From Anoxynatronum buryatiense (GTDB taxonomy: Bacteria > Bacillota > Clostridia > Peptostreptococcales > Tindalliaceae), in contig NZ_FXUF01000020.1 of the NCBI RefSeq assembly GCF_900182905.1, positions 1 through 49,481 of the forward strand: a stretch of DNA of 49,481 nucleotides. Direction: 5' to 3'. This document shows positions 25,298-40,640 of this stretch, piece after piece. The position numbers were made by a program, and so were the translations under genes. The notes beneath the pieces are model-generated. The model worked only from the letters and a program-made list of their open reading frames with translations, made no database searches and had not been told where the DNA came from. Position 1 is the stretch's first letter. Each line of letters begins with the position of its first letter.

Positions 25298-26053
25298 TTA
25301 CACCAGCTTTCGTTCCACCATTTCGTGTACCACAAAGGCCGCCACATCTTCGGCGTAACTGCCGGATCCAAAACCGGCATCATATCCCAGTTCCTTTGCA
25401 AGTTCATGGGACAGGCGCGGACCGCCGCACACCACCACCAGCCGGTCACGAAGGTTTTCCGCTTCCAGCAGTTCAATGAGATGTGTCAGGTTTTTAATGT
25501 GGACATCTTTCTGCGTGACCACCTGAGACACCAGCAATGCATCTGCTTTCAGCTCAATGGCCTTGGCAATCAGTTCCTCGTTTTCCACCTGACTTCCCAG
25601 GTTGTACGCCTGCACACCTTTATAGCGCTCCAAACCGTAATGACCATGAAAACCCTTCATGTTCATAATGGCATCAATCCCCACCGTATGGGCATCACTG
25701 CCGGTACAGGCTCCCAATATCACCACATCCCGGCGCACCTGATGTTCAATGAACTCTTCCACTTCTTCCTTGCTCATGCGTTCCACTTCCACCTTGGGCA
25801 CTTTAATGGCATTGTAGTTAATGCTGTGCTGGCATTTGGCATAAACAATGAAATAGGTGTAACCAATACCCAGGTCCATGGCATTCACCACATTGGGTTC
25901 TTCCATCCCCATTTTCAGCACCAGTCTTCGGGCTGCTTCCCGGGCTTCTTCCCCATAGGGTACCGGCAGCGAGAAGCTTAATTGCACCATTCCGTCGTCA
26001 AGGGTATCTCCGTAAGGTTTAACATTTGCAAGATCAACCTGTTGTACCGACAT
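25298..26053 (-). CDS. kamE: Lysine 5,6-aminomutase beta subunit (B12- and PLP-binding)
   Basis: With KamD it moves the terminal amino group of beta-lysine or D-lysine from C6 to C5, using adenosylcobalamin and PLP. The 251-residue subunit has an N-terminal dimerisation domain and a Rossmann-like cobalamin domain. The base-off motif is GSDAHTVGID (His122 as cobalt ligand). Lys133 in NMKG, 11 residues later, matches the PLP-binding lysine known in the Clostridium sticklandii enzyme (His133/Lys144 there). Its ATG overlaps the kamD stop by one base (TAATG), so translation is coupled. It is the final gene of the operon and is followed by a strong terminator. Confidence 0.97.
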   Translation of the reverse strand: MSVQQVDLANVKPYGDTLDDGMVQLSFSLPVPYGEEAREAARRLVLKMGMEEPNVVNAMDLGIGYTYFIVYAKCQHSINYNAIKVPKVEVERMSKEEVEEFIEHQVRRDVVILGACTGSDAHTVGIDAIMNMKGFHGHYGLERYKGVQAYNLGSQVENEELIAKAIELKADALLVSQVVTQKDVHIKNLTHLIELLEAENLRDRLVVVCGGPRLSHELAKELGYDAGFGSGSYAEDVAAFVVHEMVERKLV

Positions 26054-27609
26054 TACCGCTCACCTCCCAGCATCAAAGCAATAAAGGGATTCATATATCC
26101 GGCACCTTTTCGGAAAACGCCCTTCAGCCCTTTACCGCCGGTGCGGGATCGCTTAACGCCGCCAAATTTTCCTTCTTCAATCGTTTTGTAAAGGCCGTCT
26201 GATTCGATTTGCGTTAAGAGCGCCACCGCGTCTGCCAGTACCTGTTGCGCCCTTCGCTGAATCATGCCGCCTTCTTTAAACTCCACTTCTTCACCGATAT
26301 CCCGGCAGTTGTTGAAAATGTACTTGGCATTTTCGATGGCTAGGGCCCGGTCATGTAGATGGGGGGTATGATTGGCTTCCGTGAGCATTCCCAGCAGCTG
26401 AATTCCCTGATGGGTCCAGATGGATGCCAGATTGAACATGGCATCCTGAATGTGTCCCTTAAAAATGTTTCCCGTCATGAACTTGGTGGGAGGCATGTAT
26501 TTCAGGGGAGCTTTGGGAAAGATCTCCCGGGCCATTTGTGCCTGGGCCAGCTCAAGAAGAAAACCATTGGGAATATCCGGGTCCATTTCGAAGGCGTGGC
26601 CCAGGGCCATCTGTTCCTCCGGAAGCCCTGCTTTTAAGGCAAACTGTTCATTGATGAACTGGGAAGCCACCACCGTGTGGGCTTCTTCCACCGCATCAGC
26701 AGTGGTCAGGTAGTTATCTTCTCCAGTGTTGATGATGATCCCGGCAAACCCGTTGATCACCCTTGAGAAAAATTGATCCACCAGTGTTCGCTGCATGTTG
26801 ATGTCCCGGAACAGAATACCGTAAAGGGCATCATTCAACATCACATCCAGCCGTTCAATGGCTCCCATGGCGGCAATTTCGGGCATGCACAAACCGCTGC
26901 AGTAATTGCACAGCCGAATGTAGCGACCCACCTGTTCACCTGTCTCATCCAGGGCTTTTCGCATAATCCTGAAGTTTTCCTGAGTGGCATAAGTGCCTCC
27001 AAATCCCTCTGTGGTGGGCCCATAGGGTACATAGTCCAGCAGGCTCTGGGCAGTGCTGCGAATCACGGCAATGATATCGGCACCCTGCCGCACCGCCGCC
27101 TGGGCCTGCACCACGTCTTCATAGATATTGCCAGAGGCCACAATCAGGTACAGGTATGGCTTTGGCCCTTCTCCCAGCTCTGTCAGCATCTGGTCCCGGG
27201 TCTGCCGGTTCTGGCGGATTCTGGTGACCATGTCACCGGCAACACGCCCCACCACCGCTTCCACTTCTGAACGGTTTTGCGCAGGAATTTCAAGTAAGTT
27301 CAGGGAACCATCACTCACCCCTTCGGCAATTTCCTGGGGGCTTTTGCCGGTGGCCACCATGGCATTCCCCAGCCAGTAGGCCACGCCTGTTTCCAGACCT
27401 CCCCCTTCACGAATGTGGTTCACCACCACATTGGGCAGGGGTTGATCCACTTCATCAATCCCGTCAATGCCCATTAATCGGGCGATGGTGCGCTCCACGG
27501 TAACCGTGGTATGATCGTCAATGAATCCCTGCACTTCCTGTGCAATAGCCTCTGCCGATGCTCTGGCTTGCTGAATGAGTGCCGGATTAAGGTTCAGTTT
27601 ACTTTTCAT
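26053..27609 (-). CDS. kamD: Lysine 5,6-aminomutase alpha subunit
   Basis: The large TIM-barrel subunit of the B12-dependent lysine 5,6-aminomutase. The 518-residue length and segments such as LIVASGNIYEDVVQAQAAVRQG, YVPYGPTTEGFGGTYATQ and IINTGEDNYLTTADAV are characteristic of KamD/OraE-type aminomutases. Ornithine 4,5-aminomutase is the alternative family, but the split KamD/KamE pair beside kamA and kdd points to lysine. The GGGAGG ribosome site lies in the end of kamC, and the start overlaps the kamC stop by 3 nt (ATGA). Confidence 0.97.
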   Translation of the reverse strand: MKSKLNLNPALIQQARASAEAIAQEVQGFIDDHTTVTVERTIARLMGIDGIDEVDQPLPNVVVNHIREGGGLETGVAYWLGNAMVATGKSPQEIAEGVSDGSLNLLEIPAQNRSEVEAVVGRVAGDMVTRIRQNRQTRDQMLTELGEGPKPYLYLIVASGNIYEDVVQAQAAVRQGADIIAVIRSTAQSLLDYVPYGPTTEGFGGTYATQENFRIMRKALDETGEQVGRYIRLCNYCSGLCMPEIAAMGAIERLDVMLNDALYGILFRDINMQRTLVDQFFSRVINGFAGIIINTGEDNYLTTADAVEEAHTVVASQFINEQFALKAGLPEEQMALGHAFEMDPDIPNGFLLELAQAQMAREIFPKAPLKYMPPTKFMTGNIFKGHIQDAMFNLASIWTHQGIQLLGMLTEANHTPHLHDRALAIENAKYIFNNCRDIGEEVEFKEGGMIQRRAQQVLADAVALLTQIESDGLYKTIEEGKFGGVKRSRTGGKGLKGVFRKGAGYMNPFIALMLGGER

Positions 27610-29279
27610 TCGCTTTCCTCCCTCTCCCCGTTAACGGGGTTTTCCACTGTTGCTTCCTGATGAAGGCACAGCCACCGTTGGGCCGCCTCCAGAATGTCAG
27701 GCTGCAATCCCATCAGCGATGCCACTGCAATGGCATCTTTCGGCACCGGCACGCCGGGTTCCCGGGGTTGCAGGCGGTAGTCCATGGCAGCTTCGAAAAG
27801 GCCTGAAGACCATCCTGTTTCCTGTACCTGATGCTTCAGCTTTTGGAGGGTTGCCCGATTAAGTCCCAGCACTTGCAGATGTCTGACTCCCGGCAGATCG
27901 CCAACACCGTCGTAATGGGTGGTGACGACTGAAATGGCTTCGCTTTGACTTAAATGTGCCACAATAGCCCTGGAAATACAGGTCCCTTCCAAAGGATTGG
28001 TGCCGCTGGCCAGCTCATCCAGCAGCAACAGTCCTGATTCATGCGTACGCTGCAGCACTTCTTTCAGTGCATATATTTCTGCTCCAAAGGTGGACAGTCC
28101 CATGGACTGAGACTGCTGGTCGCCTGTTGAAAAATAAAGCCAGTCCACCGGCTGAAAGGCGAAGTGATCCGCCGGTACCCAAAACCCCATCTGGGCCAGG
28201 GTGGTAAGGAGGGCCGTCATCTTCAGTGTCATGGTTTTACCGCCCATATTGGCTCCGGTAATCACCGTCACCCCCCGGCTCATTTCAATATCCACCGCGG
28301 TGGGCTGTCGGCGCTGTCGGCGCAGGGCTTCTTCCAGAACCGGGTGCCTTCCTCCCGTGATGCAAATGGCAGCTTCGTCTGTCAGCGCGGGGCAACAGGA
28401 CCGATATCGCCGGGCCAGTACCACCTTGCCCAGCAACAGGTCCATCTGTGCCAGGGCAAATGTATTGGCCATCAGCGGCTCCAGCGCTTCCCCGATCCTT
28501 TCACTGAGACGCTGGCGCACCCGATTTTCCGCTTCATCTTCCCTCATTAACAGCGTTTCTGTTTGTTCTGCTTCCGGTAGTCTGCGCTGCCGGTAAATCC
28601 ATTCGCCTCCCGTTTCGCCGGTCTTTTCGTACGTCCCCAGCGACTCGAGGCGATGAATGATTTCTATATGGGTTGCTGGAATAAGAAATTCACCATTCCA
28701 AAGGGGCTGTATGCCCGTTACTTCCACAGCCTGCTGCTCCTGCAGCTTTGTCTGGCGACGCAGGCCTTCCTCCAGCCTGTTTTTTTCCTGGCGAATGTGT
28801 TTCAGCTCATCATCATAACAGTCGTACACATAAAATGTTTCGATGCCTGTTCCTTCGGGATCCAGCAGATTAATGAGCCACTGAACCGGGGCCAGTTCAA
28901 CTGACGAAACCAACAGCTTCCGATTGTGCTGAAGCACTTTTCTGATTCGCTCCGTGGCAAAAGCCTGCTTTTTGATCTCAAACAGTTCAATATCTGTCAG
29001 TCGATCCCCCCGAGCTGCCAACAGCAGCGACTTGCGCAGGTTGGGCAGGCCATGAAGATGTTGCCGCAGGCTTTTCAACAGATCAGGGTTTGCCATGTCT
29101 GCTTCCAGGTAAAGACCAATCTCACGCCACGACTCTTCCAGCTGAAGCGCTTCTTCTCGGGAGAAAGGTTTCAGGGCTTCTTTTGCCAGCCGGCCGTATT
29201 CTGTTTCCAAAGGCAGGCGGGCCAGGGTTTCTGTCAGCCCTATTGCTTCGGGAATGCTGTCATTCAAAAAGAATGTCAT
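27606..29279 (-). CDS. kamC: MutS-like ATPase of the aminomutase reactivation pair (KamC)
   Basis: A 557-residue protein related to the core and ATPase parts of DNA mismatch protein MutS, without the mismatch-binding domain. Helical lever-type regions precede the ATPase, with Walker A TGANMGGKT (about residues 340-348) and Walker B LLLLDELASGTNP with a downstream THYD signature. In lysine-fermenting Clostridia this gene always sits beside kamB and kamDE and is annotated as part of a lysine 5,6-aminomutase reactivase, presumably exchanging damaged cobalamin. The ATG at 29279 overlaps the kamB stop (ATGA) and follows GGGAGG; the 23-codon upstream extension is rejected. A DNA repair role is unlikely here. 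Confidence 0.9.
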   Translation of the reverse strand: MTFFLNDSIPEAIGLTETLARLPLETEYGRLAKEALKPFSREEALQLEESWREIGLYLEADMANPDLLKSLRQHLHGLPNLRKSLLLAARGDRLTDIELFEIKKQAFATERIRKVLQHNRKLLVSSVELAPVQWLINLLDPEGTGIETFYVYDCYDDELKHIRQEKNRLEEGLRRQTKLQEQQAVEVTGIQPLWNGEFLIPATHIEIIHRLESLGTYEKTGETGGEWIYRQRRLPEAEQTETLLMREDEAENRVRQRLSERIGEALEPLMANTFALAQMDLLLGKVVLARRYRSCCPALTDEAAICITGGRHPVLEEALRRQRRQPTAVDIEMSRGVTVITGANMGGKTMTLKMTALLTTLAQMGFWVPADHFAFQPVDWLYFSTGDQQSQSMGLSTFGAEIYALKEVLQRTHESGLLLLDELASGTNPLEGTCISRAIVAHLSQSEAISVVTTHYDGVGDLPGVRHLQVLGLNRATLQKLKHQVQETGWSSGLFEAAMDYRLQPREPGVPVPKDAIAVASLMGLQPDILEAAQRWLCLHQEATVENPVNGEREESE

Positions 29280-30343
29280 GCCAGGCCCTCCCTTCCCATC
29301 ACATTGACCACCGGCACTGTCTGAACTGCTTCTCTCATCTGCCGGCAAAAATCAGTGCTCTGAAAGCGCCATCCTCCTGGTGACCAGGGATTCACAGTGA
29401 GAAATAGTAAGCGGATGGGGCGGAGCACCTGAAGCTGCAATCCCTGCTTCTGCCAAAGCCTCGCCTCCTGCCGGGAAATAAACAGGCGGGTGGCGTCCTC
29501 AAGCACCAGGGGCATGTCGCGGTATAGCGGGGTGGTATCCACCAGATCTCTGACGGTACGGTTGGTAAGGCTGCCTCTGATGAGTACTCCCTGGTGGCTG
29601 GGCTTCATCAGGCGGCCGATTTCTTTCCCCTGACTCAACGCCGTGGCGAAAGGCAGGGCTTCAATGGCGCCATCGGCATGCACCAGTCCCACGCCGCTCT
29701 CTTCAGGCAGCAAGGCTTCCATGCCTGCCATCCGGGCCTGGGTAAGATGCACAGGTGGTACCTGGGGCTGCCAGAGGGGTGTTTCCAGCACCTGTACCTG
29801 ATGGGCCGTTTCTGCCACTGCCTCCCGCAAATCCCGTGACAGTACAGCACCGGTAGCCAGAATACCGCCGTCAGCAATGGCGGGCGAGGCGCTGGTTTTA
29901 CGGTTCAGCGCTCCATCCACCAGCACCTGGCGGGCACCATACCGCAGCATTTGCCTGCAAACCCGGCGGATACCTCTGTTGGTATCAGGACCCGCCAGTT
30001 CCACCCAGCCCCGCTGTCTGACCCGCACCAGCACCACCTGACCCACTGGTGTCTTTTCCCGGGTTGTCTCCAGTATTTCCACCCGGGCATCACTGCGCCT
30101 GAGGCACAAATCAGTGGTCGCCAGCAGCGTTCCCGGTTCCACCAGTATTCCCGGCTTTTCCGTCCCTGTCACCAGGTCTTCCAGCTCGCCATCCCGGCCA
30201 ATGGAGGTCAACCCCAGCAGCCGGTTTTCCTGAGCAGCTTCGGTAATCAGACGGTTCAGTACCACGGTTTTTCCCGCATTCTTCGCCATTCCTATGACTG
30301 CCACTGTTTTCAGTTCGTCGGGAATCAGCGACCACAGGTTCAT
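29276..30343 (-). CDS. kamB: Aminomutase reactivation subunit KamB
   Basis: A 355-residue protein with an N-terminal P-loop (GMAKNAGKT, residues 18-26), followed by a region resembling SIMIBI-type NTPases ([15 protein letters not shown]). The rest has few recognisable motifs. Gene order kamA-kamB-kamC-kamD-kamE identifies it as KamB, the partner of KamC in keeping lysine 5,6-aminomutase active. No clear ribosome site precedes the ATG at 30343, but it overlaps the kamA stop in an ATGA, so it is probably made by translational coupling. An in-frame start at 30451 lies well inside kamA and is rejected. Confidence 0.88.
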
Positions 30344-31590
30344 TGGTGACTGCGACGGTGTCGTTCCAGATCTGAAGGTTCCAGTGCAATTTTTTCTCCC
30401 AAAATCAGCCCGGCCACACCGCCGACTTCTTTGTTTCTTTTGCCGTTGCATACATCGCAGGCGGGATCACTGACATAATCAGTGGGCTCAGAGTAGGTGG
30501 TGATCACGCCTTCATAGTTTCGCAGCACCACTTTACCGGCACCCTGCGAAATCATGTACTGGGGCCCCACGGGAATTTTACCGCCGCCGCCGGGGGCATC
30601 CACCACAAAGTTGGGAACTGCATAACCAGAGGTGTGTCCCCGAAGTCCTTCAATAATTTCAATGCCTTTTGCCACGGTGGTGCGGAAATGCTCAATGCCC
30701 ATGGAAAGATCGCACTGATAAATGTAATAGGGTCGCACCCGTTCTTTCACCAAGCCGTGGACCAGTTCTTTCATCACGTGAATGCAGTCGTTCACACCCC
30801 GCATCAGCACCGACTGGTTGCCCAGGGGAATGCCTGCATTGGCAAGGCGTGCCAGCGCTTCTTTGGCTTCCGGCGTCAGTTCTTTGGGATGATTAAAATG
30901 CGTATTCAGCCAGATGGGGTGGTATTTTTTCAGCATGTTCACCAGATCGTCGGTAATGCGCTGGGGCATCACCACCGGTGTGCGGCTGCCAAGACGGACT
31001 ATTTCCACATGGGGAATTTCCCGGAGTTTGGCAATGATATATTCCAGGCGGGAGTCGGAGACCAGCAGACAGTCGCCGCCGGATAACAGCACGTCACGCA
31101 CCTGGGGGGTGTTTTTAATATATTCAATGGCTGCATCAATGCGGTCCACCGGCATACCCGTATCCTTTTGGCCTGCAAAACGCCGGCGGGTGCAGTGACG
31201 GCAGTACATGGCGCACATATCGGTAATGAGCAGCAACACCCGGTCGGGGTAGCGGTGGGTCAGTCCGGGAACCGGGCTGTCCACGTCTTCATGAAGGGGG
31301 TCATCCATGTCAGAGGCACTTTTATGGAGTTCACGCATAGTGGGGACCGCCTGCATGCGCACCGGACAGCGGGGATCATCAGGGTCCATCAGCGCTGCAT
31401 AATAGGGAGTAATGCCCATACGCAGGGTTTCCAGTGCTTTTTCGATACCATTTTCTTCCTCGGGTGTCAGGTTGATGACTTTTTTCAGGTCTTCCACCTG
31501 TGTAATGCGATTTTTCACCTGCCACTCCCAGCTGTTCCACTGGTCGTCGGTGACATCCTTCCAAAGCTCAATTTCCTGATAGGAACGCAT
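30340..31590 (-). CDS. kamA: L-lysine 2,3-aminomutase (radical SAM)
   Basis: Converts L-lysine to L-beta-lysine with a 4Fe-4S cluster, SAM and PLP, the first step of lysine fermentation. In the 416-residue protein the radical SAM motif is CAMYCRHC (Cys126, Cys130, Cys133). The PLP lysine is in the PGGGGK loop near residue 340, and a C-terminal zinc-type Cys pair (CDVC) follows. GGAGGAG precedes the ATG. A strong stem-loop separates it from kdd, so it may be expressed at a different level or from an additional promoter in the 132-nt gap, where no clear sigma-A or sigma-54 site is seen. A glutamate 2,3-aminomutase is possible on fold alone, but the kam context settles the call. Confidence 0.97.
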
Positions 31591-36772: not shown

Positions 36773-38017
36773 TTATGTCGCCGAAAACTGATTTTCTTCC
36801 TGACGGCGTGCCAGCGTATCCAGCAGCAGCGCCACTGGAATAACACCGCAATATTGCTGGTCTTCATGAATCACCAGGTAATCATACAGCTGATGTTCAC
36901 GCCGGCTCATGGCCATGCGGCACAAATCAAGAAGAGGTGTGTCACTCCCGGCCATCAACGGCTGAAGATCTGCCACATCTCCCAGGGGAAGCTCCTGGAA
37001 TCGGTGAGCATCACCGCTTTTTTCCATCTGATAATAGTATTTGCTTCGCATCACCAGACCCAATGGCCGGTTCTGTTGCAACAAGGCAATTCCCTGAAGG
37101 TTGTCATTTTCAGAAAACAGGTCGCCGGCAGCCCGGCACCGGTCTGTTAACTGCAGCGTCGCGTCCTGCCGCATGATCTCCCTGGCAGTCAGCCCTTCAG
37201 ATTTGCCCTTCAGCTGCGTCAACAGTTTTCCATGAGCCTTCATGGCCTCCACTTTTTCGGGTGCGGGAAAACCCATCACCGGAGCCGGTTTTTGGATCCA
37301 ATACCCCTGACCGTAATGCACCCCCATATCCATGAGCGCTCTGGCCTCATCCCAGGTTTCGATGCCTTCGGCGATGGTTTTAATGCCTGTCAGTTGGGCA
37401 AATCGTTGCACGCTTCGCAGCAGCTCCCGCTTCACCATGTCTTTATCCACATTACGCACCAAGTCCATGTCGATTTTCAGATAGTCTGGCCTGGTTTCTG
37501 CGATGAGTCGAAGCCCAGAATAACCACTGCCGGCATCATCAATGGCGATACGGTACCCCTGATCCAGATAATTGCGTAGCAACCTGTTGAAATGGCGGTA
37601 GTCGGTCACCGCCGTTTTTTCTGTCAGTTCAATAATAATGGTGGCTGCATCCAGCTCCACACTTTTAAGTTGTTCCCGGGTGAACCCCTTTCGAAATTTT
37701 GGATCAAGGATGCTGTCGGGGTCAACATTGATGAAAAGCTTATGCTTTCCGATGGTCTCTCTGGCATTTTGAATAGCACAGCTTCGGCACAAAAGATCCA
37801 ACTCCCACACCCGGTTGAGCCTGCGGGCATGGTCAAAAAGCCGGTCGGGCCTATAAAACCAACTTTTTTCAGGTCCACGGCTGAGAGCTTCATAGCCAAG
37901 CACTTCGCCGTCACTTAGAGAAACAATGGCCTGAAAGTGGGTGGTGATCTGCTTGTGATGCAGCAAGGATAAAAATTCCTGATTCAGTTGGTGGTTGTTC
38001 TGCGGCACAGCTGTCAT
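36773..38017 (-). CDS. c-di-GMP phosphodiesterase, EAL domain with C-terminal CBS pair
   Basis: Predicted to hydrolyse c-di-GMP to pGpG. The 414-residue protein has an EAL domain (about residues 15-255) with all catalytic signatures: ExL as YEALSRG (Glu43), the metal-binding NVDP and IIELTE, the IDDAGSGYSGL loop, YLKID with the catalytic Lys, and AEGIET. The C-terminal part (about 265-400) looks like a CBS pair that may bind a nucleotide (HQLYDYLVIHEDQQYCGVI). No membrane helix is seen. The ATG at 38017 follows GGGGAA; a longer frame to 38164 is rejected. It faces away from a paralogous EAL-CBS-GGDEF gene across a shared promoter region. Confidence 0.92.
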   Translation of the reverse strand: MTAVPQNNHQLNQEFLSLLHHKQITTHFQAIVSLSDGEVLGYEALSRGPEKSWFYRPDRLFDHARRLNRVWELDLLCRSCAIQNARETIGKHKLFINVDPDSILDPKFRKGFTREQLKSVELDAATIIIELTEKTAVTDYRHFNRLLRNYLDQGYRIAIDDAGSGYSGLRLIAETRPDYLKIDMDLVRNVDKDMVKRELLRSVQRFAQLTGIKTIAEGIETWDEARALMDMGVHYGQGYWIQKPAPVMGFPAPEKVEAMKAHGKLLTQLKGKSEGLTAREIMRQDATLQLTDRCRAAGDLFSENDNLQGIALLQQNRPLGLVMRSKYYYQMEKSGDAHRFQELPLGDVADLQPLMAGSDTPLLDLCRMAMSRREHQLYDYLVIHEDQQYCGVIPVALLLDTLARRQEENQFSAT

Positions 38018-38072
38018 AATTGTTCCCCACTTCCCCTTACACCTATGTATTTGAATGATAAATGGTGCTGTT

Positions 38073-38081
38073 ATTCTATCA
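38073..38081 (-). promoter_or_regulatory. Extended -10 promoter for the EAL-CBS gene
   Basis: The minus strand reads TGATAGAAT (TGn plus TAGAAT), about 55 nt before the EAL ATG; no good -35. Confidence 0.5.
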
Positions 38082-38167
38082 CGAGCGCGGCTTGCTTCTG
38101 TTAGTATTTTGTTAACTTCCCGTGAATTTTTGGAAAACCGGAAGCTTAACAGAATATTTACCATCCA

Positions 38168-38196: not shown

Positions 38197-38283
38197 GCTT
38201 TCAGTACGTTCCGTTTTCGTCATCCCCTCATGCACCTGTGTGATTCCTCGATTTCAGGGTGCGGGAAAGGAGTTCTTGGCAGT

Positions 38284-40488
38284 ATGATTTCCCGACGTCT
38301 TTATGACCAGGTGATTCAGGAAACCGGTCAGACTCTCAAAGAGCTCCATGAAATACTTCCACCTCAAACCACTTTCGAACCAATTTTCAGCACCACTTAT
38401 TTCAATGTGTGTGGCTATGAGTTGCGCTCCTCTTTCAGCCGGCGGTTTGATCCATTACTGGAAGCTTTCATGGGAGAAGCCGCTTTTTCAGCAGATGAGC
38501 TTTTTCATCTGCAACGCCGCATTCAGTTTCTTACAGAGGTTCTTTTTGTCGCTCACCTCAGTGAGACACATGCTTTGGGGCTTCCCGTCTATATTAATTT
38601 TTCCGGGTTGTTTCTTAATGATCCCCGTTTTATGGAATACATTCAGCCCCTTATTACCAACTATCGTCAGGTTAATATCCTTTTCTTGACCATTCAGGTG
38701 GATGCTTCGGTATCAATGCCTCTCCTAAACGAATGGTTGAAGCATTCAGGAGAAATGAAAGCCAGCCATTGTCTGTTGAAATGGTGTCCCGCTGACGAAA
38801 CCATGCCACATCATTCATTTTACCAGGCGTTTTCCAAATGGACAGGCGTCCCCCTTCTTCTTGGTCAGGTGGCAGATACAGCCACTCTTGAAAAGGCGGT
38901 CCATTTTGAAATCCCTTATTGCACCGGAACCCATTTCTCCCCTCCCCTTGATTGCATCACTGATCTGAAACCGCCACCGGCGGCCGTTCATCTGCAAGAG
39001 GTGGTTAACTCCAATTCGTCCACTTTTTCCACCAGACCTGCGCCGCCGGCGACGGTTCAGGTGGGAAGCATTGCCGGCAAAGTGCCCGCGGTTTCACTGA
39101 AAAGCACTGGTGCCGAAGTAAAAGAACTGTTTGCTGTCAATCCATTGACTGAAGGGCTGGTGGTTTTGTCTGATGAAGGCTGGGCCGCAGGACTCATCAT
39201 GCGGGAGCAGTTTTACCGGAACCTCAGCCGCCAGTATGGTTATGAAATCTTTATGAACCGTCCCATTGGTTTGATCATGGTCACCCATCCACTGGTGGTT
39301 CATGACCAGACTCCCATTGATGAAGTGGGTGAACTGGCCATGCGCCGCAGCCAGGATCATTTATATGATTATGTCATTGTTCAGAAGGAAGATCGTTATC
39401 ATGGGGTGGTAAGCATTCGGGAGCTGCTGATTCGCATCTCCGAGATGAATGTGAGCATTGCCAAATATACCAATCCCCTTACCGGCCTCCCCGGCAATGA
39501 ACTCATCGCCCGCCAGCTGGAGCAGGCCCTGCATTTAAATACCTGCACACTCCTTTACGTGGATGTTGACCATTTTAAAGCTTATAACGACATTTATGGA
39601 TTTGAAAAAGGAGACCGGGTGCTTCGTTCGCTGGGCAGTATCCTTCAGAAGAACCTGTTGCTCCTCAATGAACCCCATGCCTTTCTGGGCCACATTGGCG
39701 GTGATGATTTTGTCATCATCCTTCCCCATTATCACTATGAGTCCCTTTGCCAACAGGTGATCCAAGAGTTTGATTCAACCATTCGCCAGTATTATCATGC
39801 CGGTGATCTGGCCCGGGGCTTCGTAGTGGCTCAAAACCGCCGGCACGAAAAGGAAACCTTTCCACTGGTGTCTCTTTCAATTGCCGCAGTTACCAATGAA
39901 TCCAGTGATTTCGGCAGTATTGACCGACTCACTCTGGCAGCCGCTCTGGGGAAAAAGCGGTGCAAGGAAACAACCGGCAGTTCCTTTCTATCACTGACAC
40001 AAGAAGACTGGCGGCAGGTGGATGCCGCCATAAATGGAGGAGATGAATCAATGCGTCAACGAAAAGTTCTCTTTATGTGCGTGCACAATGCTGCCCGCAG
40101 CCAGATGGCCGAAGCATTTTTGAAGCATTACGGCAAAGATGCCTACCAAGTGGAAAGTGCCGGACTGGAGCCCGGCACTTTAAATCCCCTGGTGGTGGAA
40201 GTGATGCAGGAAATTGATTTCGATATTTCCGGCAACAGCACCAACAGTGTGTTTGATTTTTTTAAGGAAGGCCGTCTGTATACCCATGTCATCACTGTGT
40301 GTGATGTGCACAACTCTGAAAAATGCCCCATCTTTCCCGGAAAGGTGATGCGTCAAAACTGGAGCTTTCCGGATCCAGGGGCTGTGGAAGGTACTCATGA
40401 AGATAAACTGGCCCAGGTGAGACTCATTCGGGATCAGATCAAAACCCGGGTGCTCCAGTTCATTGAAGAGGACGCCGCTGCAATATAG
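38284..40488 (+). CDS. Fusion protein: degenerate EAL, CBS pair, GGDEF, arsenate reductase/LMW phosphatase
   Basis: A 734-residue open frame in four parts. Residues 25-225 resemble an EAL domain but have YELRSS where EAL should be and lack the other catalytic motifs, so this part is probably inactive. Residues 268-385 are a CBS pair paralogous to that of the divergent neighbour (LYDYVIVQKEDRYHGVV). Residues 395-565 are a GGDEF domain with YVDVDHFKAYND and GGDDF (472-476), a conservative change; no RxxD inhibitory site is seen. Residues 590-734 are a complete thioredoxin-coupled arsenate reductase with CVHNAARS (Cys599), CDVHNSEKC and FPDPG. The ATG at 38284 has AAAGGAG 11 nt upstream. The last part also has its own ribosome site, so either a true fusion or a recent loss of a stop is possible. 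Confidence 0.85.
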   Translation: MISRRLYDQVIQETGQTLKELHEILPPQTTFEPIFSTTYFNVCGYELRSSFSRRFDPLLEAFMGEAAFSADELFHLQRRIQFLTEVLFVAHLSETHALGLPVYINFSGLFLNDPRFMEYIQPLITNYRQVNILFLTIQVDASVSMPLLNEWLKHSGEMKASHCLLKWCPADETMPHHSFYQAFSKWTGVPLLLGQVADTATLEKAVHFEIPYCTGTHFSPPLDCITDLKPPPAAVHLQEVVNSNSSTFSTRPAPPATVQVGSIAGKVPAVSLKSTGAEVKELFAVNPLTEGLVVLSDEGWAAGLIMREQFYRNLSRQYGYEIFMNRPIGLIMVTHPLVVHDQTPIDEVGELAMRRSQDHLYDYVIVQKEDRYHGVVSIRELLIRISEMNVSIAKYTNPLTGLPGNELIARQLEQALHLNTCTLLYVDVDHFKAYNDIYGFEKGDRVLRSLGSILQKNLLLLNEPHAFLGHIGGDDFVIILPHYHYESLCQQVIQEFDSTIRQYYHAGDLARGFVVAQNRRHEKETFPLVSLSIAAVTNESSDFGSIDRLTLAAALGKKRCKETTGSSFLSLTQEDWRQVDAAINGGDESMRQRKVLFMCVHNAARSQMAEAFLKHYGKDAYQVESAGLEPGTLNPLVVEVMQEIDFDISGNSTNSVFDFFKEGRLYTHVITVCDVHNSEKCPIFPGKVMRQNWSFPDPGAVEGTHEDKLAQVRLIRDQIKTRVLQFIEEDAAAI
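40051..40488 (+). CDS. arsC: Possible independent arsenate reductase from an internal start
   Basis: An ATG at 40051 lies in frame within the GGDEF fusion gene and is preceded by GGAGGAG at 40036-40042, an 8-nt spacing as good as any start in the window. The product would be a 145-residue arsenate reductase with the nucleophile Cys10 in the CX5R loop, the two resolving cysteines in CDVHNSEKC and the acid/base Asp in FPDPG; this length and layout match stand-alone thioredoxin-dependent ArsC. It reduces arsenate to arsenite. A stop (TAA, 40031-40033) sits 2 nt before the ribosome site in the +1 frame, as if the upstream gene once ended there. No arsR, arsB or arsM is nearby. Confidence 0.6.
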   Translation: MRQRKVLFMCVHNAARSQMAEAFLKHYGKDAYQVESAGLEPGTLNPLVVEVMQEIDFDISGNSTNSVFDFFKEGRLYTHVITVCDVHNSEKCPIFPGKVMRQNWSFPDPGAVEGTHEDKLAQVRLIRDQIKTRVLQFIEEDAAAI

Positions 40489-40489
40489 A

Positions 40490-40640
40490 CCGCCTTGTCA
40501 AGATCGGCAGCGTTGACAAGATTGACAAAATCGTCAAGGATGGCACTATTGACAGGATCGATAAAGATGACAGAATCAGTAAGATTGACAGAATCGACAA
40601 CATTGGTAAAGTTGACAGCATCACTTGGGTTGACAGGATT
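40490..40640. repeat. Degenerate short tandem repeat (TTGACA-RATYG-like units)
   Basis: About 150 nt directly after the fusion gene stop consist of imperfect 9-15 bp units around TTGACARRATYG, with at least eight TTGACA/GTGACA-like copies. On the + strand one frame would read as an Ile-Asp-Arg/Lys pattern, on the minus strand as Ser-Ile-Leu. It lies between the convergent fusion gene and pyrC. Several units match a -35 hexamer, but no matching -10 boxes are seen. Confidence 0.75.

Follow-up and report, generated by a model that had tools for sequence, protein, structure and literature searches.

Several fusions of the arsenate reductase ArsC with other proteins are listed in the available part of one paper (PMC6205960), namely ArsR-ArsC, Acr3-ArsC (498 aa, M. 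tuberculosis), AqpS-ArsC (Salinispora), and ArsN-ArsC, and a view quoted there is that ArsC "seems predestined" for such fusions. A GGDEF-ArsC protein was found neither in that part of the paper nor in the rest of the open literature searched, which was covered mostly by titles and the openings of abstracts. Here, we describe a reading frame of Anoxynatronum buryatiense (Clostridia) in which a protein with CBS and GGDEF domains continues in frame into ArsC. The window, i.e., the whole stretch of DNA analyzed, comprises 49,481 nucleotides of contig NZ_FXUF01000020.1 (assembly GCF_900182905.1). The genome of the window (G000) was compared with one genome of the same genus (G002) and two of a sister genus in the same family (G005 and G003). 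With a probability of roughly 0.7, the frame represents a natural, probably recent, and private stop-loss fusion of two tandem genes, which would yield a protein of ~83 kDa in addition to free ArsC of ~16 kDa.

Domain organization of the fused reading frame

A preliminary description of this DNA had claimed that one uninterrupted frame joins degenerate EAL, CBS, and GGDEF domains to a low-molecular-weight phosphatase with all of its catalytic cysteines. The frame is indeed stop-free from 38230 or 38284 to 40488, the claimed domain content agrees with Pfam, the fold match and the relatives (Table 1), and the three ArsC cysteines are found at residues 599, 673, and 681 of the fusion. Counted from stop to stop, the frame spans 766 aa. 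The ATG at 38284 is most likely the start of the fused gene, because AAAGGAG lies upstream of it and MISRRLYDQVIQ resembles MISRNIYDQVIQ of the G002 relative; the upstream alternative, ATG 38230, has no Shine-Dalgarno sequence. The mass computed for the 734-aa product is 82.9 kDa, and a tryptic peptide crossing the junction, QVDAAINGGDESMR, is specific to the read-through protein.

Table 1. Features of the fused gene, its junction and the divergent partner gene (window coordinates).
Feature	Coordinates	Strand	Basis
Divergent partner gene, well-scoring EAL	36773..38164	-	PF00563 169.7 bits; relatives in G002, G005
Shine-Dalgarno AAAGGAG of fused gene	38266..38272	+	sequence
Fused ORF, 734 aa: degenerate EAL - CBS pair - GGDEF - ArsC	38284..40488	+	ATG 38284, TAG 40486-40488
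Degenerate EAL domain	38284..39033	+	PF00563 15.7 bits, below cut-off 31.3; YkuI fold match
CBS pair	39055..39447	+	one Pfam CBS match; model residues 258-388 match CBS-pair structures
GGDEF domain, motif GGDDF at 39697	39472..39987	+	PF00990 and TIGR00254 above cut-off
Linker; GGDEF stop codon of relatives falls here	39988..40050	+	comparison with relatives
Perfect 8-bp inverted repeat, directly 5' of arsC ribosome-binding site	40009..40030	+	once in genome
Internal Shine-Dalgarno GGAGGAG, 8 nt before arsC ATG	40036..40042	+	sequence
Out-of-frame TGA, likely ancestral GGDEF stop (short match)	40044..40046	+	in-frame TGA in G005, G003
ArsC-type LMWPc domain / internally startable arsC, Cys 10, 84, 92	40051..40488	+	Pfam, alignment, model

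In a Pfam run on a longer frame of 752 aa, the GGDEF (PF00990, 62.6 bits; cut-off 23.8), CBS (27.0 bits) and LMWPc (PF01451, 52.3 bits; cut-off 23.2) domains all scored above their respective cut-offs. The N-terminal part stayed below the PF00563 cut-off of 31.3 bits, as did its G002 relative (23.5 bits). We call it a degenerate EAL domain on the basis of these weak scores, of three outgroup proteins that share its layout (L137, L139, and L152) and whose EAL domains reach 149.7-182.4 bits, and of the similarity that Foldseek detects between the model and the EAL protein YkuI (2bas, E 2.4e-7), given without the part of the model that aligned. The GGDEF domain also exceeds the TIGR00254 cut-off (55.7 versus 37.4). 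Active diguanylate cyclases carry the motif GG(D/E)EF. The motif here reads GGDDF instead of GGDEF; the consensus of alignment A1 likewise has GGDDF as its majority form. No RxxD is present at its usual distance.

Started at its own ATG, ArsC comprises 145 aa (16.5 kDa). Its cysteines align with C10, C82, and C89 of Bacillus subtilis ArsC, the redox cysteines of that enzyme. In the AlphaFold2 prediction, the ArsC part is well modelled (Foldseek TM by target 0.91 to 8p5n) and is preceded by a stretch of low confidence; it superposes on ArsC2 of D. indicus (8p5n) with Z 21.9 and rmsd 1.7 over 138 residues. The GGDEF part is of low confidence, and GGDEF-ArsC contacts are thus unreadable from the model. 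Downstream, a degenerate 18-nt tandem repeat (ATTGACAGAATCGATAAA) was observed at 40548-40605, between arsC and a dihydroorotase-like gene.

The divergent partner gene had no Pfam CBS match listed at E 0.1. With 27% identity to residues 280-386, the C-terminal portion of its product is similar to the CBS region of the fused protein. A well-scoring EAL protein (36773-38164, minus strand) faces a degenerate-EAL-CBS-GGDEF protein (38284-39990, plus strand), and the three outgroup counterparts are single EAL-CBS-GGDEF proteins; the divergent pair looks like the result of a duplication followed by division of labour. Elsewhere in the window, an aminomutase cluster (25298-31590, minus strand) encodes D-ornithine 4,5-aminomutase-like subunits and a lysine-2,3-aminomutase-like protein, and a MutS domain V protein is encoded inside it.

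The same locus in relatives

In G005, GGDEF and arsC lie in tandem and in the same frame, split by a single in-frame TGA that sits between the Shine-Dalgarno sequence and the arsC ATG, the latter beginning 9 nt after the start of the TGA. A gene for a methyl-accepting chemotaxis protein lies between the EAL gene and this tandem (L038 1960-3942). In G003 (L166 5900-7270), the GGDEF gene is broken; a matching GGATGA closes its last fragment, and an arsC remnant of ~20 residues comes directly after it (tblastn of G005 ArsC, E 1e-6, in two short stretches with filters off). In G002, GGDEF has its own stop and arsC is located on the opposite flank, behind the EAL gene; no arsC relic was found after GGDEF in this genome, and a single inversion of the divergent pair of EAL and GGDEF genes could account for the different gene order. 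The preliminary description had held that a stop codon between GGDEF and ArsC in all related loci would refute the fusion, and such stops are largely what the relatives have, as an intact separation in G005 and within a broken gene in G003, while the arsC of G002 stands on the other side of the EAL/GGDEF pair.

Among the seven genomes of the family, arsC of the window kind (E up to 1e-25) was detected in G000, G002, and G005 and was absent at this threshold from G001 (75% complete), G003, G004, and G006. In all three carriers it lies beside the EAL/GGDEF locus, to which the relic in G003 is added. Judged by these loci, the linkage of arsC, EAL, and CBS-GGDEF is inherited, older than the fusion, and the more durable oddity. 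Outside the family, linkage of ArsC to c-di-GMP genes was not seen in a survey of 56 loci, 55 of them with ArsC, several from the same genome and 45 with 1.5 kb flanks, GGDEF/EAL neighbours occurring only in G000, G002, and G005; the survey omits 10 of the 39 phylum-scan ArsC matches other than the window's own, for which there was no locus. ArsC might be a standing third member of the c-di-GMP locus of this family (EAL, CBS-GGDEF, ArsC) that reports the arsenate or thiol redox state to c-di-GMP signalling and whose link has now become covalent in this species, a reading that we regard as rather improbable.

In the ArsC tree, G000, G002, and G005 form a clade (support 99/94) with G000 and G002 grouped inside it (98/83), and the G000 branch (0.23) is as long as the G005 branch and shorter than the G002 branch (0.51). 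The nested clade argues for vertical inheritance of arsC, and G000 has no long branch. The tree gives no support to an independent horizontal acquisition of arsC by G000, which was considered because the ArsC of G000 is more similar to that of G005 (72% identity) than to that of G002 (67%). The ArsC part of the fusion shows no decay in this tree. These branch lengths also bear on the idea that the fused frame is real and yet irrelevant, in which case the internal start would supply nearly all ArsC and the fusion would be unstable or on its way to being lost. Decay of the locus is possible, as both genes are broken in G003, and the internal Shine-Dalgarno sequence is strong; however, the G000 branch is no longer than that of G005, and neither part of the fusion has a stop or a missing domain, which makes this idea hardly credible.

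Distribution of the fused frame

Genomes of the order (393), class (391), and phylum (398) were scanned as overlapping sets, with one genome per species and larger groups sampled. The order scan detected ArsC relatives (E up to 1e-25) at 11 places in 10 genomes, and ten of these places have unfused frames of 107-184 aa, the remaining one being the window. GGDEF-CBS relatives (E up to 1e-30), with at most three candidates scored per genome, occupied at least 62 places in 59 of the 393 genomes, and the other 61 frames listed are at most 658 aa long and unfused. The class and phylum scans added 5 and 39 ArsC places, none of which (0 of 44) has a GGDEF-ArsC fusion; their longest frame, of 340 aa, joins the end of an SBF/Acr3-type permease in frame with ArsC (G1033, L178 898-1917), a known kind of fusion, and the rest reach at most 184 aa. 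Thus, a GGDEF-ArsC frame in more than one genome was not found in the order (1 of 11 ArsC places and 1 of 62 scored GGDEF places), and a widespread fusion is ruled out by these overlapping samples.

By these scans, the fusion is private to G000 among the genomes searched, and it appears derived, because the relatives keep GGDEF and arsC separate. A derived and private state does not show that the fusion is absent from the cell. The preliminary description knew of no established fusion between c-di-GMP proteins and arsenate reductase; the combination is undescribed as far as the literature was searched, but the relatives in the order are unfused, so that an established architecture it is not.

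Arsenic context

A separate ars cluster on contig C1 of the same genome encodes a further ArsC together with an ArsP_1 permease and Acr3, and the fused ArsC is therefore a second, different copy. In two genomes (G116 and G320), relatives of the window ArsC have ArsP_1 or ArsR-like genes at a distance of up to about 5 kb, and a third genome (G129) has similar arsenic genes by its likeness to G116. These neighbours suggest an arsenic origin of the window-type ArsC. The other genes tested near ArsC in these three genomes are unrelated to arsenic, as are two in G029 and one in G039.

The junction and the probable origin of the fused frame

The TGA at 40044 lies between GGAGGAG and the arsC ATG, in a frame that differs from the fused one, and is 7 nt from the start codon, a spacing shared with a TGA in the G002 arsC leader. 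It is likely the ancestral GGDEF stop, by a match of a few bases. Upstream, the inverted repeat was marked by a scan as terminator-like on the minus strand, and its region folds little better than shuffled sequences (z -1.19; 27 of 200 shuffles equally good). A mobile repeat was considered for this hairpin and discarded, because the 22-mer has no second copy in this genome when as many as 3 mismatches are allowed.

A codon-usage model trained on 28 genes of the window favours the fused frame over the frame of TGA 40044 by about 6.5 nats across 39988-40041, of which 0.2 nats come from 39988-40014 and 6.3 from 40015-40041. This value over 18 codons is low compared with real coding sequence here (median 15.1 for 21 codons) and gives moderate support to the linker being coding. 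A single switch between the two frames would cost 4.5-8.9 nats at positions up to 40021, which argues against a frame change early in the linker, 3.7 nats at 40024, and 0-3.8 nats at 40027-40042. As the costs are lowest in the last interval, the frame change most probably lies in the arsC ribosome-binding site or immediately upstream of it.

The main rival explanation, which we consider unlikely, is a sequencing or assembly error, in which an indel call near GGAGGAG hides a real stop and the genes are an ordinary adjacent pair. Codon usage leaves this undecided because the site of such an error would be the ribosome-binding site itself, and it permits a frame change at 40027-40042. The stop stands there in G005 and G003, the TGA exists here in another frame, slippage at the short GGA repeat is plausible, and the finding was selected for looking odd. 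Besides, the fused frame occurs in a single genome, and one small indel accounts for the whole difference between the fused and unfused states, as it would in a base-call or assembly error. On the other hand, the site contains no long homopolymer, the assembly reaches 99.81% completeness with 47 contigs, all 31 matches of the fused protein in this genome (the fusion itself included) are stop-free inside, and 16 of the 20 neighbour proteins tested cover at least 85% of a Pfam profile, with two covering one partly and two having no match. Genome quality and intact neighbours lower the chance of an error and do not remove it, as they do not address the specific base.

In the stop-loss fusion that we prefer, a CBS-GGDEF gene and arsC would have been inherited in tandem as neighbours, and a small indel, or a small number of substitutions, in the arsC ribosome-binding site or immediately upstream of it would have left the ancestral TGA in another frame. 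One base gained or two bases lost (net) ahead of TGA 40044 would suffice to remove the in-frame stop, as would a few substitutions. Ribosomes starting at 38284 would then produce the fusion of ~83 kDa, whereas the retained internal Shine-Dalgarno sequence and ATG 40051 would still allow free ArsC of ~16 kDa to be made. We infer that the two enzymes are most likely independent modules joined by a short flexible linker. A selected bifunctional protein, in which CBS/GGDEF signalling and arsenate reduction cross-regulate in one polypeptide, could be expected from the position of arsC by EAL/GGDEF genes in three genomes with a relic in a fourth, from the intact ArsC cysteines, and from the ArsC fusions with arsenic proteins named in the available part of PMC6205960. 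Nevertheless, no second genome with the fusion was found in the scans, the internal ribosome-binding site is retained, the linker is of low confidence in the AlphaFold2 model, and GGDDF together with the missing RxxD leaves cyclase activity unproven, so that this explanation appears very improbable.

If the fused frame is real, it would offer a snapshot of a two-gene operon turning into a two-domain protein, in which the stop kept by the relatives is still visible as an out-of-frame TGA together with the old ribosome-binding site, and it would be the first c-di-GMP/ArsC polypeptide found in the literature searched. The fusion also points to an inherited arsC/EAL/GGDEF locus with a testable logic.

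Comparison with known systems

The window ArsC has the fold and the cysteine triad in common with thioredoxin-coupled ArsC of the pI258/B. subtilis type and with D. indicus ArsC2 (8p5n), and differs from B. subtilis ArsC by one extra residue between the second and third cysteines. In addition, the ArsC part alone scores 114.7 with TIGR02691, below the equivalog cut-off of 174.3; although outside this equivalog, it may work like a thioredoxin-type arsenate reductase. Up to the end of GGDEF, the fused protein has the same domain order as, and a length similar to, the EAL-CBS-GGDEF proteins of the three outgroup loci, which belong to the same taxonomic order, whereas in the latter the EAL domain scores far above the cut-off and no ArsC follows in frame; the window has a degenerate EAL domain in the fused frame and a separate EAL gene facing it. 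Similar to the ArsC fusions described in the available part of PMC6205960, a small arsenate reductase is joined here in frame to another protein; the partners described there come from arsenic regulation, transport, and resistance, whereas the partner in the window is a c-di-GMP protein.
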